A DNA stretch of 64,000 nt, taken from assembly GCA_025056455.1 (NCBI GenBank), contig JANWVY010000006.1, positions 62,001 to 126,000 of the forward strand. Direction: 5' to 3'. A program made the translations under genes and the position numbers. Shown here piece by piece: positions 13,185 through 20,139 of this stretch; the first letter of the stretch is position 1; each line of letters begins with the position of its first letter. Below the pieces are notes generated by a model. It was not told where the DNA came from and did no database searches. It saw nothing but the letters and a program-made list of their open reading frames with translations. The DNA comes from Bryobacteraceae bacterium (lineage in GTDB: Bacteria > Acidobacteriota > Terriglobia > Bryobacterales > Bryobacteraceae).

Positions 13185-14153
13185 CTACTCAACCGGGCGG
13201 TACAAATCGGAAATTTGCAAGGCTTTTTTTCTGCCTTGCGTGGCCAGCCTGCCCCGGTATTTGAGTTTGCCGTTGACCAGCAAGTCCAGCGGCTTTTCCA
13301 GTGGGTAATCGAAGGTGAGGACGTCCCCCTCTTCGATGGCCAAAAGGTCTTCTAAGGTGAGCGTCGGGCCCTGCAGGCGGGCGTCGAGGTGAAGAATCGA
13401 GGGCTTGATCAAAGAGAACATTCGCTCCCGCTCGGTCGGCGTCGACTCGGACTTGCGCATCGACCACTGCTGGTCAAATCTTTGACGCAACATCTTAATG
13501 ATGATCGAGGGCATGCCGATGTTCATTCTTCCCGAGTTTTCCCCCACGCGAACTTCCAGACTCACTGCCACGACAGCCTCGGTAGGGGCCAGGATTTGTA
13601 GCAGCTGGGCCTCGGACTTAAAAGCTTCGATCGTGAAGCTCATCGACGTCACCGTCGACCAGGCCTCTTTCAAATCGTGGAGCACAATCCGGAACAAGCT
13701 TTCGAGAATGCTCTGCTCAATTTCGGTGACTTCCCGATTGGGCCGCGCAGTGCCCTTGCCCGTGCCTCCCAGCAGCATCTCCAAGATGGGAAACACCAGG
13801 GAGGGATTAATCTCCAGAATGGCGTTTCCATCAAAAGGCCGGATCCCGATGGAAACAATGCAAGTCGGCGCCGGGAGCGAACGCGAAAACTCGATGAAAG
13901 ACAACTGCTCGACAGATCTTAAGGTCACCAGCGCGTAGTTCCGGAGGTAAGCTGAAAGACTCGCCGAGAGGCTGCGCGAGAAGGATTCATGCAGAAGGTG
14001 GATGGCCCGCAACTGGTCCTTGGCGATCCGGTCGGGACGTCGGAAATCATATACCTGGGCTTTCTTGGCGAGATCATCCTCGGCGAACTGACTGCCCATC
14101 TTGCCAGAAACACGCTCCTCTCCCGCTTGCCTCGGACCGCGATCCGTCGACAT
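13185..14153 (-). CDS. fliM: FliM-like flagellar motor switch protein, orphan
   Basis: Homologue of FliM, the C-ring protein that takes the CheY-P signal and sets rotation. The 322 aa protein has normal length. The FliM signature YDFRRPDRIAKDQLRAIHLL and SASLSAYLR are at about 35-75. The middle CheC-like domain has LLGGTGKGT near 128 and TEIEQSILESLF. The C-terminal SpoA/FliN-like domain has LEDLLAIEEGDVLTFD. The conserved N-terminal CheY-binding peptide (EIDALL) is absent; the first 35 residues are MSTDRGPRQAG... with no match. No other flagellar gene lies in the window, although fliM usually sits in a large cluster. The start ATG follows GAGAGGT by about 14 nt. It may work in a motor encoded elsewhere or in a CheY-independent switch. 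Confidence 0.88.
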   Translation of the reverse strand: MSTDRGPRQAGEERVSGKMGSQFAEDDLAKKAQVYDFRRPDRIAKDQLRAIHLLHESFSRSLSASLSAYLRNYALVTLRSVEQLSFIEFSRSLPAPTCIVSIGIRPFDGNAILEINPSLVFPILEMLLGGTGKGTARPNREVTEIEQSILESLFRIVLHDLKEAWSTVTSMSFTIEAFKSEAQLLQILAPTEAVVAVSLEVRVGENSGRMNIGMPSIIIKMLRQRFDQQWSMRKSESTPTERERMFSLIKPSILHLDARLQGPTLTLEDLLAIEEGDVLTFDYPLEKPLDLLVNGKLKYRGRLATQGRKKALQISDLYRPVE

Positions 14154-14185: not shown

Positions 14186-14668
14186 TTAGTCCAACAACCA
14201 GAAAGACGGTTCGATCGGCCCTAGCTCCACCATCACCGCTTTTACTCGGTCCGGGTATCCCTCATGCGGGTTATAGGTAGCTAAGAACTGCTCGAGCCGC
14301 TTGCCTTGGTAAGGCCGGGCGTTGGCCATCCGCTCGGCAACCGCATAGATGCCGTCTCTTACCGAAGGGAAGGGAATCTCCGCGTTCCCCCAACCGAAGA
14401 TATTGTTGTTGCGATAATTCTTCCCCCCGCTCGACTCCACAAAGGCGATACTGGGCAAAAGTCTCCAGTCCAGCTGATAGGCATCTGCAGCTTGGAGAAA
14501 ATCCCGCGACAGGGGCGTGATCGGGCAGGAGTATTTGCGGAAGAAGCGCTCCAGACGGATCAGCCTTGGATCCTTGCGGAAAACACTTTGCGTCCAAGGC
14601 GCGCTCGCCTCTTGCGTGAAAAGAATGAACAACCATACCCCGAGGACCGGTTTCCATTTCGAGTGCAT
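14186..14668 (-). CDS. Small exported lysozyme/transglycosylase-like protein
   Basis: A 160 aa protein read from the ATG at 14668, preceded by GAAAGGCAGC. The longer frame to 14770 would run through a terminator hairpin and is not chosen. A signal peptide or anchor (KPVLGVWLFILFTQEASA) leads. A lysozyme-like core follows, with the catalytic-glutamate block AFVESSGGKNYRNNNIFGWG at about 90-110, then MANARPYQGKRLEQFLATYNP and YPDRVKAVMVEL. This matches the glucosaminidase/SLT-like fold that cleaves peptidoglycan glycan strands. The FVESSGGKN ... N.FGWGN arrangement is typical. It stands directly downstream of the minus-strand RNA unit and its terminator. An enzyme that makes room for envelope structures is an inference. 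Confidence 0.7.
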   Translation of the reverse strand: MHSKWKPVLGVWLFILFTQEASAPWTQSVFRKDPRLIRLERFFRKYSCPITPLSRDFLQAADAYQLDWRLLPSIAFVESSGGKNYRNNNIFGWGNAEIPFPSVRDGIYAVAERMANARPYQGKRLEQFLATYNPHEGYPDRVKAVMVELGPIEPSFWLLD

Positions 14669-14736
14669 GCTGCCTTTCGAGCTCCACAGCGCAAAATCGA
14701 CTAATCGGCATCGCTTCTGGCGGTCTCTAGAGCCCG

Positions 14737-14785
14737 AAAAAACGAAATCCCCGCTGGCGCGACGGAGCACGCCGGCAGGGATTTC
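14737..14785 (-). terminator. Intrinsic terminator of the small RNA unit
   Basis: On the minus strand GAAATCCC (14785-14778) pairs with GGGATTTC (14751-14744). Additional GC pairs lie inside, and a GTTTTTT tract follows at 14743-14737. It ends the transcript that starts near 15029 and insulates the lysozyme-like gene at 14668. Confidence 0.75.
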
Positions 14786-15115: not shown

Positions 15116-16135
15116 CTACAGGTGGCGGCGTAGGTAGCGACACATCGCAAGACCGTCCATCCAATTGAAAGGGAACCTTCCTGTCGTGTAATGCGCGCAG
15201 GGAAGCGTGAAGACCTCGTGCGGGAGCCGGTATCGCTTGAAGCTTTCTAACACCTGAAGGGAATACTCGGGAAGAAACGTCGTGTCGTACTTGGCCCATA
15301 CGAGCAAGGACTTCATCCCTCTTCCTTTGAGCCGTTCCAGGTAGGTGGCAGGACTAATCACCGCCCAAAGTTTCCGCAGTTGATCTTGCGTAACGTGTCC
15401 TTCGAAGCCTTGCCTGACGTGGCGGGTGGAGAGTCCGGTCCAGACGACGTCGGAAAAGTACATGGAAACATGATTAAATACGCCCACTTGGATCCTTTCA
15501 TCATGAGCCGCTGCAATAAAGGCGATACACGAACCTAGGCTCGTCCCCAGGATCCCCAACCGGCGGTAGCCTTGCTGCTCCAGCCAGCTCAAGCACGAGC
15601 GCACGTCGATGACGCTTTGCCGCGAGGCGTGGATGGTGCGGCCGATGTTGCTCGACACGGCGTAGTCGGCCCGTTGAAGCTCCGGTGGCATGCGCCGGTC
15701 ATGGTAGGCCATGCTCATCCGCAAGGCAGTTAACCCAAATCGATTCAGAAGTTTGCAAAGCCCGACGTGTCCCTTCACGTCACTGTTCCACTGAGGTAAA
15801 ACGACCACGGCCCGCCCGCGGTCCCCGGAGACGGGAAAGAAGTCCGCATGCACGGTGTTATTTTCTGGATAGGGCGAGGCTAGCGCGCTAGTGAACGTCA
15901 GGTGATTCCCGTCGAGACGAAAATCTCGCGGCGTCTCAAAGTGATAAAAGTGATCCGAACGCCGCGCCGCCTCCTCCGCTAAGCGGTAGACGACTTCCTT
16001 GGCTTGGCCATTGACGGGCTGATCCGTGAGCCATTCGACGCCCCACTCAAAGGGGCGGACCACTCGATTCTTATCTGCCGTGGCCAGCTTATATTCCCAC
16101 TGATCAATCCACTTGGCGTAGAGATCCCCAATCAT
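15116..16135 (-). CDS. Alpha/beta hydrolase (ABHD18-like)
   Basis: A 339 aa alpha/beta-hydrolase-fold protein without a signal peptide, probably cytoplasmic. After an N-terminal cap of about 110 residues the core begins with AVVVLPQWNSD. The nucleophile elbow is GTSLGS (GxSxG, about residue 197). The acid is probably the Asp in WAKYDTTFLPEY, and the histidine is in PCAHYTTGRFPF. The long N-terminal region and the PQWNSD oxyanion strand resemble ABHD18/DUF2048-type hydrolases rather than lipases. The substrate is unknown. The ATG follows GGGGAAGA closely. Upstream is a terminator-bounded segment, and downstream is the small RNA promoter. Confidence 0.7.
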   Translation of the reverse strand: MIGDLYAKWIDQWEYKLATADKNRVVRPFEWGVEWLTDQPVNGQAKEVVYRLAEEAARRSDHFYHFETPRDFRLDGNHLTFTSALASPYPENNTVHADFFPVSGDRGRAVVVLPQWNSDVKGHVGLCKLLNRFGLTALRMSMAYHDRRMPPELQRADYAVSSNIGRTIHASRQSVIDVRSCLSWLEQQGYRRLGILGTSLGSCIAFIAAAHDERIQVGVFNHVSMYFSDVVWTGLSTRHVRQGFEGHVTQDQLRKLWAVISPATYLERLKGRGMKSLLVWAKYDTTFLPEYSLQVLESFKRYRLPHEVFTLPCAHYTTGRFPFNWMDGLAMCRYLRRHL

Positions 16136-16564: not shown

Positions 16565-17881
16565 TTGCGAAGGCGGCCAGTGCGAAGGCTTTACTCTGGC
16601 GGAAAGACTCCCAACGTGCCCACTCCTCCACCACTCCGGATGCCCCCGGATCAGTCTGTCTGGCCGGGGAGGGAGCCCGTGGCCTGCGGGGAGCCAGGCA
16701 GTCAAAACCGGACCGCCTCCCGCGATTTCGCTCGCTGGTGGATTGAGTGGAGAGCGAGGCGAATCTCGGATCCCATCGAGCGTCTTCGATTCCTACGCCG
16801 GTCGGCCCCCTACGCTGGAATATCGTGGAAACCACATCGCCGCATGGTCTTGTTCCTTGGTTTTGCCTTGGTGACGCTGGGGTGGACGCTTTCGCCGCCA
16901 GTCGGCCGTTTTCGTGAGCTGACTGGCGCAACTGCACCCCCGCTGGAGGTGCTCCGGCCTGAGGCTCGAGGCGTGCTCCGGCCCCCTGAGGTGTGGTTGG
17001 TCGAAACCAAAACAAGCTACGAGATCTATTCCAACGGCCTCCGGATTGAAACCCATGGCGCCGTTCACGAGGCGCCCCGGAAGTATTTCCTCATTCCAAA
17101 ACCTGAGAGCCCGGACGATAATCCGATGTCCCACCTGCCTTGGCGCACTGAAACTGCTCCTGCGGGCATCGTCTATCACACAACCGAAAGCCACATCGCG
17201 CCGTTCCGTTCCACCGAAACGCAGACTCTCCAGCGGCTCGCTCAGGGTGTATTGTCCTACGTCCGCCAGGCCAGGTCTTACCACTACTTAATCGACCGCT
17301 TCGGCCGCGTGCATCGCGTGGTGGACGAAAAAAGCATCGCCCATCATTCCGGCTGGTCGGTCTGGGCAGACGCCCGTCACATCTATCTGAATTTGAATGA
17401 CAGTTTCCTGGGAGTCGCCTTCGAAGCTCAAACCACACCCCAAGATGGCTCAGAGTCGATCAATCCGGCACAAGTTCGGGCCGGGCAGATGATCACCGAA
17501 ATGCTGCGCAGCAAATACCAGATCCCGGCCGAAAACTGCGTAACGCATGCCCAGGTGTCGGTGAATCCGGACAATTTTTTGGTGGGTGCGCACACCGATT
17601 GGGCCCAGCGTTTTCCTTTCGCCGCCTTCGGATTGCCCGACAACTATTCAATCCCGCTGCCCAGCATCACGCTGTTTGGGTTCCAGTATGACAACCTCTA
17701 CTGGCGAATGTCAGAGGCCAGTTTATGGAAAAGCCTGCTGTGGGCCAACGAACAGCTCCGCCAGAGCGCCGCTCAGCGAGGTGTCCGCTTGCCGGCTTAC
17801 CGCGCAATTCTCAACCGGCGCTACCTCGAACTCCTGGAAGTTTCGCGGAAACAGAAAACAGAGGAGGGTAACCAACGATGA
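16565..17881 (+). CDS. Membrane-anchored N-acetylmuramoyl-L-alanine amidase (Amidase_2)
   Basis: Peptidoglycan amidase that cuts the bond between N-acetylmuramic acid and L-alanine. The Amidase_2 domain spans about residues 195-345. Zinc ligands are expected in GIVYHTTESH (first His) and GAHTDWAQRFPF (last His). IAHHSGWS and FLGVAFEAQT are the middle blocks. A single transmembrane segment (MVLFLGFALVTLGW, residues 94-107) places the domain in the periplasm. The start is uncertain. The first 60 residues are low-complexity and proline-rich, and conserved-looking sequence begins only at RRISDPIERLRFLRR, so initiation at 16640 or further in is possible. The stop overlaps the next start (ATGA), coupling it to an actin-like ATPase. 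Confidence 0.8.
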   Translation: MRRRPVRRLYSGGKTPNVPTPPPLRMPPDQSVWPGREPVACGEPGSQNRTASRDFARWWIEWRARRISDPIERLRFLRRSAPYAGISWKPHRRMVLFLGFALVTLGWTLSPPVGRFRELTGATAPPLEVLRPEARGVLRPPEVWLVETKTSYEIYSNGLRIETHGAVHEAPRKYFLIPKPESPDDNPMSHLPWRTETAPAGIVYHTTESHIAPFRSTETQTLQRLAQGVLSYVRQARSYHYLIDRFGRVHRVVDEKSIAHHSGWSVWADARHIYLNLNDSFLGVAFEAQTTPQDGSESINPAQVRAGQMITEMLRSKYQIPAENCVTHAQVSVNPDNFLVGAHTDWAQRFPFAAFGLPDNYSIPLPSITLFGFQYDNLYWRMSEASLWKSLLWANEQLRQSAAQRGVRLPAYRAILNRRYLELLEVSRKQKTEEGNQR

Positions 17882-18870
17882 AAGACGCTCCATGCTTCGG
17901 TCTCGACGTGGGCACCAGCCGCGTCGTACTCGCCTATCAAGCCGGCGGGGGTTTTTCCTTCCGCAGCCAGCTCAATGCATTTGTCCAAATCCCTTATTCA
18001 AAAATCACCGAGGGTGTACTCAAAAAGGAACAAGTACCTTACACGGTGGCTCAAGGCGATTTGGTCATTCACGGCAACGAATCGGAGCGATTCGCTGACC
18101 TGCTCGGCCAGGAGGCGCGACGTCCCATGCGGAGCGGCCTGCTGAACCCAGCAGAGGTTGAAGGTGAGAAGCAGCTCGGCCTCATCTTTCGTGCTTTGCT
18201 CGGAGAGGAGGACGGAAACGGGCGGAAGATTTACTTCACCGTGCCAGCTGCTCCCTTGGGAGCCGAGGAAAATCTCACCTACCACGAGGCCACGATTCGA
18301 AACCTGCTATCCGGGATGGGCTACCAAGTCGAGGCCATAAACGAGGGCCTAGCCGTTGTCTACGGTGAACTTGAATCGTCCAACTTCACGGGCATTGGCG
18401 TAAGCTGTGGCGGCGGGCTCTGCAACGTCTGTCTCGCTTACTTGTCCGTGCCTGTATTGAGTTTTAGTGTTCCCAAGGCGGGGGATTTTATTGACTCAAG
18501 CGCCGCCGCAGCCATGGGAGAGCTTGCCACACGCATCCGCATTGCCAAAGAAACCGACTTTCACTTCAACGGAAACTACAGCGATAAGGCCCACCAGGTG
18601 CTCAGTGTCTTCTATGACGACATGATCACAACGCTCGTCACGGCCATGAAAGAGGCATTCTCCAACACCAAAAAACTGCCTCGGCTAGGACGCCCGGTTC
18701 CGCTCGTGCTGAGTGGAGGGAGCGTGATGCCGCGTGGTTTCCGCGAACGCTTCGAACAGGTTCTTCGCAACTCCAATTTTCCGCTGGCCCTGTCCGAGGT
18801 GCGTGTTGCCTCTGAACCCCTTCATTCGACAGCCAAGGGCGCTCTTGTGGCCGCGCTCAGCGAAGCCTAA
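17878..18870 (+). CDS. Actin-like ATPase (MreB/Hsp70 fold)
   Basis: A 330 aa cytoplasmic protein with the nucleotide-binding blocks of the actin/Hsp70 superfamily: phosphate-1 FGLDVGTSRVVLAY (7-20), a connect region around NEGLAVVYGE (160), phosphate-2 GIGVSCGGGLCNVCLA (about 172-187) and the adenosine motif LVLSGGSVMPRGF (about 280). KLPRLGRPVPLVLSGG and STAKGALVAAL are like the C-terminus of MreB/DnaK relatives. It is clearly divergent from MreB, FtsA and ParM, and I cannot assign a subfamily. The 4-nt overlap with the amidase implies one message and perhaps one process, such as positioning cell-wall hydrolysis. No partner adaptor or ParR-like gene is next to it. Confidence 0.75.
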   Translation: MKDAPCFGLDVGTSRVVLAYQAGGGFSFRSQLNAFVQIPYSKITEGVLKKEQVPYTVAQGDLVIHGNESERFADLLGQEARRPMRSGLLNPAEVEGEKQLGLIFRALLGEEDGNGRKIYFTVPAAPLGAEENLTYHEATIRNLLSGMGYQVEAINEGLAVVYGELESSNFTGIGVSCGGGLCNVCLAYLSVPVLSFSVPKAGDFIDSSAAAAMGELATRIRIAKETDFHFNGNYSDKAHQVLSVFYDDMITTLVTAMKEAFSNTKKLPRLGRPVPLVLSGGSVMPRGFRERFEQVLRNSNFPLALSEVRVASEPLHSTAKGALVAALSEA

Positions 18871-18882
18871 AACGTGGAGCTG

Positions 18883-20139
18883 CTAGCGCCGCTCTCGAAT
18901 GGACTCGAAAAGCCACTGTTTGTTCGCTGAAACCGCGGCTTCGAGCTTTTGGCGCAAATCCTGGCGCCGTTCAAACAGGCGATAGCCCGCTGGCTCGCGC
19001 AGGTACCCGCGCGCCTCCGGATGCCGGACAAATAGCTCTTCTTCGCCTAGCTCGGCCCGCAGCCGTTGAAATTTTGCTCGTTTGTCCAGAAGCGCCTTCA
19101 CGAGAAAAGGCATCAGCATCGAATAATCGGCTTGCAGGCTTTCGGTGGTTTTTTGATAACTATCCTTGTCCACCTTCCCCCAGGTCACAGCCTCAGCGGG
19201 AGGGCAGGAGGAAAGCGATCCGTCGGTAACCGGCGCCGACACAATCTGAACATCAAAATAGTAGCCACGGACGTCGGGCAAGCCCAAAACCTGGCCCAAG
19301 GCTGGCTCGGGCTGCAAATTGTAGTTTTTGGGGACGCCTCCGCCCAGGATCAGCGTGGCCAGCCGCCCGACGGGGTGCTCGAACAATCCCCACCAATGGT
19401 AGGCGCACGCTTCAAATACTTCGGCATGCAGATCCAGCTCAAAGCGGTAGTCCTCGATCAACCCAGTATTCCGCATGGCCCACAGCTTCATGGAATTTAA
19501 AAACACGCTGCCGTCAGCTGGCGCGCCCACCAGTACGGGAATCGCCAGCCGGTGACAGGTTGCGAGCAAACCGGGACGCACTCCCATCTGTGTTTCCTGC
19601 TCGGCGTAAAAACCCCCTAACAAGTAGCGCATCTCGGTTCCGGTCATCTTGCGCTGAAACTCTGGCCGCAGCAGAATTTGGGAAAGAAAAGCATCTTGAT
19701 CGAGAAGTACTTGCTCGTCGAAGGCCATGTCCGTAACCCGAATCGTGCCCTCGTGCCGCAGCGCTGCGTCATCCCCAAAGATGGGGACTTCAAAGATCGG
19801 GTCTTGTGTGTGGTGGCGTAGCGAGCGGTGGCCGTCGTGATAGCAAACTGCGTCGGTGGTGCTTAAGTAGGCAACCCAACCAGTTTCCAGCAACGGTATC
19901 AACCACGTTTGGTGCTGGCCTGATACCGTAACGGGGCCTGAAATCGAAATCGTGAGTGGACAGCCCATGCCAATGGCGGCATCCAAGATTTCATAAATGC
20001 GCCGCAAATAGGCGCCTCCAAAGGCTGGCAGACAATTCAAAAAAACTTCTTCTAGGGTGCGGCATTCATCGACCCGTCGCACTCGCACGGGCCGTCGCCG
20101 CTGCTCGTGTTTTCCCTGCGTCATTCCGAATCCGACCAT
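18883..20139 (-). CDS. Deoxyhypusine synthase-family protein
   Basis: A 418 aa member of the deoxyhypusine/homospermidine synthase family, NAD-dependent aminobutyl transferases that use spermidine. Family blocks: LTISISGPVTVSGQ (substrate/NAD loop), STTDAVCYHDGHRS, the ILGGGVPKNYNLQPEP loop near 268 carrying the lysine that in eukaryotic DHS forms the imine, and VQIVSAPVTDGSLS followed by AEAVTWGKVDKDS. Bacteria lack eIF5A, so the product is probably homospermidine or another modified polyamine; that is an inference. The protein is longer than typical DHS because of a C-terminal extension (FVRHPEARGYLREPAG...) rich in charged residues. The gene converges on the actin-like gene with a 12-nt gap. 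The start is ATG at 20139. Confidence 0.82.
   Translation of the reverse strand: MVGFGMTQGKHEQRRRPVRVRRVDECRTLEEVFLNCLPAFGGAYLRRIYEILDAAIGMGCPLTISISGPVTVSGQHQTWLIPLLETGWVAYLSTTDAVCYHDGHRSLRHHTQDPIFEVPIFGDDAALRHEGTIRVTDMAFDEQVLLDQDAFLSQILLRPEFQRKMTGTEMRYLLGGFYAEQETQMGVRPGLLATCHRLAIPVLVGAPADGSVFLNSMKLWAMRNTGLIEDYRFELDLHAEVFEACAYHWWGLFEHPVGRLATLILGGGVPKNYNLQPEPALGQVLGLPDVRGYYFDVQIVSAPVTDGSLSSCPPAEAVTWGKVDKDSYQKTTESLQADYSMLMPFLVKALLDKRAKFQRLRAELGEEELFVRHPEARGYLREPAGYRLFERRQDLRQKLEAAVSANKQWLFESIRERR

Follow-up and report, generated by a model that had tools for sequence, protein, structure and literature searches.

A 64,000-nucleotide stretch of a Bryobacteraceae genome (contig JANWVY010000006.1, positions 62,001 to 126,000), referred to here as the window, contains two overlapping genes on the forward strand. 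The first is predicted to encode a transmembrane N-acetylmuramoyl-L-alanine amidase and the second encodes an actin-like ATPase of the Volactin family. The amidase open reading frame (ORF) extends from 16565 to 17881 and encodes 438 amino acids when read from TTG, its first possible start, and the volactin ORF (17878-18870, 330 amino acids) begins with ATG. The stop and start codons share the bases ATGA at 17878-17881, as read from the sequence, so that the overlap of the two genes described in an initial annotation of this DNA is confirmed. ATG at 16640 is the likelier start of the amidase, because residues 46-52 are missing in more than 80% of 82 aligned relatives, whose common part starts near residue 53, and because the AlphaFold2 model of the long ORF has low confidence over its first 45-50 residues. 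Amidase_2 and Volactin are the only Pfam models whose cut-offs are exceeded by the two proteins. The pair is probably, in our judgement, a two-gene morphogenesis module in which volactin filaments would hold the amidase by a motif in its tail, thereby placing wall cutting.

The amidase matches Pfam Amidase_2 (PF01510) over residues 198-331 (17156-17557, forward strand) with 53.9 bits against a cut-off of 26, and this catalytic domain is presumably periplasmic. Its AlphaFold2 model (mean predicted local distance difference test score, pLDDT, of 85.1) matches AmpD, AmiD, AmpDh2 and T7 lysozyme in the PDB, and a profile made from 55 amidase relatives matches AmiD and Pseudomonas AmpDh2/AmpDh3. 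H205, Y239, H261, H328, H343 and D345 are invariant in the 55-row alignment; by comparison with T7 lysozyme and AmpD, these are the candidate metal ligands and catalytic residues. With NCBIfam the protein scores 26.9 bits against the AmpD equivalog model (NF008758), far under its cut-off of 143, and one further Amidase_2 gene occurs in the window's own genome. A single hydrophobic stretch (residues 95-113, hydropathy 1.68; helix at 92-109 in the model) precedes the catalytic part, and its N-terminal side is rich in Arg and Lys; for these reasons an N-in/C-out topology is likely. Hydropathy and model together predict a membrane-spanning helix at residues of about 94-113 (16844-16903, forward strand). 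The protein would thus consist of a short cytoplasmic tail, a one-helix membrane anchor and a periplasmic catalytic domain, and the membrane-anchored Amidase_2 enzyme of the initial annotation is supported by the Pfam score and the one helix, with the anchoring itself predicted.

The ATPase had been said to fall in no identifiable family, which proved wrong. It is a member of the Volactin family (PF25216), scoring 261.7 bits against a curated Pfam cut-off of 35, with residues 7-326 covering positions 3-321 of the 321 in the model. By the same cut-off it belongs with VolA (HVO_2015) of Haloferax volcanii. The suggestion of an MreB/Hsp70 fold is supported by predicted structure: the AlphaFold2 model of the window volactin (pLDDT 88.5, predicted template modelling score 0.87) has an actin fold, and its best PDB matches with Foldseek are MreB, with MamK and actin also matched. 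When these matches were re-scored with VIA-align, the nearest solved fold was MamK (Z 27.5), tied with BeeR (27.1) and followed by MreB (25.7), a list from which the absence of a family does not exclude it. The NCBIfam MamK model (NF040964) gives 22.7 bits against a cut-off of 400. MreB_Mbl (PF06723) has no match to the window volactin at E<=1 in Pfam, and a separate MreB (491.9 bits) is encoded elsewhere in the same genome; the window volactin is therefore regarded as an additional actin. Its Pfam matches include no standard MreB, FtsA, DnaK or sugar kinase, the identities that would have spoken against the initial annotation had they come with no conserved amidase link. The hydropathy profile has a single peak at residues 180-198, where the model places core strands of the actin fold, and neither hydropathy nor the model shows a membrane helix of volactin's own.

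The linkage of the two genes was examined in genomes of the Acidobacteriota, the one bacterial phylum that the genome searches covered. Among 61 genomes (the window's own and 60 relatives), volactin is found in 29 and the amidase subfamily in 30; both occur in 28, volactin only in one (G034), amidase only in two (G016 and G032) and neither in 30. The contig ends within the gene in both G034 and G016. Across 247 genomes of the phylum, with volactin counted over the Pfam cut-off and the amidase profile at E<=1e-30, volactin is found in ten and the amidase in nine, with both in eight, volactin only in two, amidase only in one and neither in 236. The amidase adjoins volactin in 28 of the 30 loci from the 61-genome set, four of these being divergent; the two loci that lack it are L028, where volactin is cut by the contig start, and L030, which holds a second volactin copy. 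In other families of Acidobacteriota (L085-L092), whose volactins are 44-49% identical to that of the window, the amidase is kept in six of eight loci. A named-genome collection yielded at least 409 relatives, of which the best 80, that is the closest ones and partly on the same contigs as the 61 genomes, have the amidase upstream on the same strand in 77 loci, downstream in one (L188) and absent in two (L134 and L191). A 4-base overlapping start is possible in 32 of the 77 co-directional relatives. When neighbours were clustered over 94 loci (the window, 13 fetched loci and the 80 named-genome loci), the amidase cluster was present in 89, and the biggest other genuine cluster listed reached 22; clusters of comparable or larger size consisted of volactin or of ORFs that shadow the pair on the opposite strand or in another frame. 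The pair stays together while flanking genes vary, and chance adjacency was rejected because the arrangement recurs over genera and families. Two side observations concern individual records. The amidase gene of G208, the amidase-only genome among the 247, is cut by the contig start (L205, G208:C90:1-6000), and an istB/istA-like transposase pair, annotated by eye, directly follows it. A contig titled as a Bordetella parapertussis metagenome-assembled genome (L149, CALQCC020000014.1) also carries the pair, and this title is probably a mislabel.

In an alignment of 82 amidases, conservation within the cytoplasmic part is confined to a short stretch, window residues 64-78; a variable spacer separates it from the membrane helix. 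Column entropy is at most 1.1 bits at A64, I67, D69, P70, R73, L74, L77 and R78. The conserved juxtamembrane motif is approximately [ILV]-x-[DES]-[PA]-x-x-x-L-[RK]-x-[LM]-[RK], the copy in the window amidase being ISDPIERLRFLRR; ISDPIERLRFLR at residues 67-78 (16763-16798, forward strand) is the putative volactin-binding peptide. It is not obvious why an enzyme of the periplasm should conserve a cytoplasmic peptide, except as a binding site for some cytoplasmic component. In G032 (L206) the amidase gene is uninterrupted and no volactin is found in the assembly or beside the amidase; here a reading in three frames of the region ahead of the catalytic part did not show the motif. By comparison, DPVERLRFLRRA is present in the G016 amidase, which is truncated by the contig end.

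Volactins are also encoded by haloarchaea, where the neighbouring gene is a different one. Four plasmid records (three Haloarcula, one Natrinema) hold volactins that are 37-38% identical to the window's in a full-length alignment, and in all four the next upstream gene lies on the same strand and has a similar length. In both cases tested this gene encodes DUF7139 (139.0 and 162.8 bits; cut-off 30), with the volactin genes directly downstream at L194:6917-7825 and L204:4971-5894. Both DUF7139 proteins show 3-4 hydrophobic stretches. Their tails are long and charged and hold VDDAVDGLRQLQ and VDDQTAKLKELR. Whereas the window volactin is bacterial and adjoins a peptidoglycan amidase, the archaeal ones seen adjoin DUF7139, in haloarchaea, whose envelope lacks peptidoglycan. 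DUF7139 is also encoded by H. volcanii, although its position relative to volactin was not seen there. The volactin of H. volcanii polymerises in vivo into dynamic filaments that have a role in cell shape and touch the membrane with their tips, as reported (PMC10869688). This suggests DUF7139 as a candidate membrane anchor for the tip-bound filaments.

Relatives of volactin were found on 368 viral contigs of up to 436 kb, of which the best 80 (L211-L290; 30-36% identical to the window volactin) were analysed. One volactin each is also encoded in the records of two uncultured phages, 485 and 595 kb long (L291 and L292). The three phage volactins tested pass the Pfam Volactin model with 263.7, 227.5 and 263.9 bits; one passes MreB_Mbl (30.3 against 27) yet scores 263.9 as Volactin. 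In 46 of the 80 viral loci the upstream protein on the same strand comes from a single sequence cluster. In 28 of these 46 loci at most 65 bases separate its stop from the volactin match, and elsewhere the distance extends to as much as 2.5 kb; its C-termini are exemplified by LDDAASALKALRKKK and IDESADALRRLRGKK. A PHROGs search with ten phage proteins, among them volactin and its partner, assigned none to a family. The genes around them resemble a structural module of the virion; the start of one downstream product is like that of a tail sheath protein, a likeness that family searches did not confirm. Since volactins are present in viral contigs and Amidase_2 enzymes are common in phage lysis, the window genes could be seen as a lysis or defence-like effector pair in which volactin gates a lytic amidase. 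No relative of the window amidase was found, however, in the 80 viral volactin loci examined or in the plasmid records, and a lysis cassette was rejected on this ground. Volactin is moreover single-copy in 27 of the 29 genomes carrying it and is kept with the amidase over genera and families, which makes an effector pair highly improbable. The initial annotation had offered both a lysis-like system and filament-guided wall remodelling; nothing found points to the former, and the latter is supported by the family, the fold and the conserved linkage.

Similarity between the amidase motif and the proteins encoded upstream of other volactins was measured in both directions. Of 35 dereplicated phage partners, five lacked the seed pattern, and a 12-column matrix was built on the remaining 30. 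Over whole amidases its best window falls on aligned residues 67-78 in 53 of 82 sequences, or 42 of 66 after dereplication, compared with 0.4 on average and at most 22 of 66 over 200 column permutations. The family-averaged score of the 66 amidases tops at residue 67 (3.73; runner-up -5.78), and the scores of amidases and control ORFs differ by an overall shift (p 0.0001). Sequences within a family are not independent, so that permutation figures are the fairer ones; by these, 51 of 5000 column permutations do equally well on the amidases (p about 0.01). A matrix made from the amidases has its best window within the last 45 residues in 29 of the 35 phage partners, where 22% would be expected by length, and none of 1000 column permutations is as good. 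Partners make up 21 of the 50 top-scoring viral ORFs with this matrix and 46 of the 836 ORFs overall. For the two DUF7139 proteins, column permutations are as good in 0 of 5000 cases with the phage matrix and 13 of 5000 with the amidase matrix.

Outside the 46-member phage cluster, the upstream proteins of L227 and L243 (mutually related) and of L288 reach a shuffle p of <=0.001 by the phage matrix and of 0.065, 0.044 and 0.013, respectively, by the amidase matrix. The upstream protein of L279 reaches 0.005 with the phage matrix only, and those of L277, L289, L255 and L278 reach 0.05 with neither. A close upstream ORF is present at 60 of the viral loci, and at 36 of these its last 40 residues contain a loose pattern, which has a frequency of 8.7% among 762 forward viral ORFs; this count keeps near-identical contigs and covers none of the 20 loci that lack such an ORF. 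The partner in the 485-kb phage has the motif (p 0.0005) and is a relative of the training set. It is quite possible, though slightly less likely than not, that the volactins of bacteria, haloarchaea and huge phages share a way of holding partners through a short amphipathic helix motif in the protein encoded upstream, namely in the tail of the amidase in Acidobacteriota, in that of DUF7139 in haloarchaea and at the C-terminus of an uncharacterised protein in phages. The partner would have been swapped and the motif kept, with one actin adapted to three very different jobs.

In the proposed mechanism for the window pair, volactin would form ATP-dependent filaments in the cytoplasm, and the amphipathic-helix motif of the amidase tail would dock on them. 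The filament would thus be joined to the membrane through the tail, and could concentrate or activate peptidoglycan cutting at chosen places such as the septum, the pole or a bend; the direction of control could be recruiting, activating or restraining. Several observations weigh against this mechanism or against the shared motif. Volactin occurs without an amidase in L134 and L191. A matrix score of at least 8 is reached by 16% of the amidases (n = 75) and 15% of the control ORFs (n = 410), and a score of at least 10 by 5% and 7%, respectively; the window amidase by itself has a shuffle p of 0.036, and with the amidase matrix a shuffle p of 0.05 or less is obtained for 16 of the 35 phage partners. 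Because the matrix is weak for any single protein, the motif claim rests on coincidence of position, permutation tests and recurrence. The motif was not found in the upstream ORF of the 595-kb phage, in the PBP1A-like neighbour of L086, in the ParA-like neighbour of L091, in the upstream gene of L094 or in the small membrane proteins whose genes precede volactin in phages L213 and L215. Its loss in G032 is one case, in a genome that is 87% complete. Finally, the second phosphate loop of the window volactin aligns as SCGGGLCNV with DIGGGTTEV of Caulobacter crescentus MreB, and with Ser in place of MreB's Asp, ATP hydrolysis by volactin is not assured.

Such divergence of the phosphate-2 loop would suit a volactin that does not polymerise at all and acts instead as an ATP-dependent switch, sensing the cytoplasm and controlling the amidase through its tail, and the literature searched was not found to describe a bacterial volactin polymer. 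The Haloarcula volactin, however, has Ser at the same position, so that this residue seems to be a family trait rather than a sign of decay, and a haloarchaeal volactin is reported to polymerise in vivo (PMC10869688). The nearest folds, namely MamK, BeeR and MreB, are moreover those of filament formers. A switch of this kind is accordingly considered quite unlikely, and filaments that hold the amidase are preferred.

The history and other associations of volactin were examined with a tree of 49 sequences, rooted on one distant MreB and excluding L134 and L191, in which the deep order is not trusted. The volactins of Acidobacteriota form one clade (support 0.996), inside which the 12 sampled amidase-linked volactins form a clade of their own (support 0.928); the PBP1A-linked L086, the receiver-fused L091 and the second copy L094 lie outside the latter. 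The haloarchaeal pair is placed among phage volactins, the support value not being printed. Since the amidase-linked volactins form one clade, the link probably arose once, inside the bacterial branch. Some neighbours differ. In L086:3871-7509 volactin is followed by a class A penicillin-binding protein (transglycosylase and transpeptidase), a neighbour that makes wall instead of cutting it. Volactin is fused to an N-terminal HU/IHF domain in L088:5587-6939 and L092:5370-6800 (31.6 and 43.6 bits; cut-off 22.4), with the amidase still adjacent, and the fusion is a possible link of the filament to the nucleoid. In L091:5251-7858 a receiver domain (35.0 bits; cut-off 30.2) is fused to volactin and a ParA/MinD-like ATPase follows, with no amidase.

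These fusions show that other roles of volactin exist and, together with the divergent orientation of the two genes at four loci, they fit an explanation in which both proteins are co-expressed in one process such as shape or division without contact, volactin having the nucleoid or other membrane proteins as its target while the amidase serves routine wall turnover. Such an arrangement would leave the conservation of a cytoplasmic stretch in a presumed periplasmic enzyme with no other obvious reason. Nor would it account for the like motif in other volactin-adjacent proteins, or for its absence from G032, the sole volactin-less case that could be examined. Co-expression without contact is thus judged unlikely, and docking of the amidase tail on volactin remains the favoured explanation.

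A close parallel to the proposed module is found among bactofilins. In Hyphomonas neptunium and Rhodospirillum rubrum, BacA and LmdC are encoded in an overlapping operon. LmdC is a bitopic M23 peptidase that cuts the wall and binds the bactofilin polymer through a short N-terminal tail in the cytoplasm (PMC10945521). The window pair likewise has a cytoskeletal-family gene overlapping a gene for a putative bitopic wall hydrolase, although it is known from sequence and its tail binding is proposed. The pair combines an actin fold with Amidase_2 in place of a bactofilin fold with an M23 endopeptidase, and Pfam finds neither M23 peptidase nor bactofilin domains in it. The bactofilin polymer is also nucleotide-free. 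By analogy, the window pair may work like bactofilin and LmdC without being a member of that system. A second parallel is MreB, which is tethered by the cytoplasmic part of the bitopic membrane protein RodZ; an MreB-RodZ complex is named in the title of one matched PDB entry. RodZ is not known to have a hydrolase domain, and the window volactin differs from MreB in its Pfam matches and in standing beside a separate MreB in its genome.

The Volactin family is extended by these results to a peptidoglycan-bearing bacterial phylum and to large phages, and volactin gains a conserved membrane-enzyme partner and a candidate docking peptide. Neither the link to the amidase nor any volactin from bacteria or phages was found described before in the literature searched, which missed most subscription papers and all preprints, and no binding partner was seen named in the haloarchaeal volactin literature consulted. 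If the proposed mechanism is true, the pair would match the bactofilin-hydrolase link with a counterpart built on an actin fold.

The other genes noted near the pair lie on the reverse strand. The gene at 18883-20139 is deoxyhypusine-synthase-like, although it occurs in a bacterium (Pfam DS, 106.9 bits), and it scores 178.2 bits with the NCBIfam homospermidine model, under the cut-off of 450. It was considered as a third member of the module and rejected because its relatives are rare at volactin loci, being near volactin in 2 of 20 fetched loci and its cluster in 8 of 94. On the other side of the pair, a gene at 15116-16135 encodes a putative quorum lactone hydrolase of the RcgR family (205.8 bits; cut-off 182). 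A 194-residue protein with a glucosaminidase match below threshold is encoded at 14186-14770, adjoining a gene at 13185-14153 for the flagellar switch protein FliM (201.1 bits).

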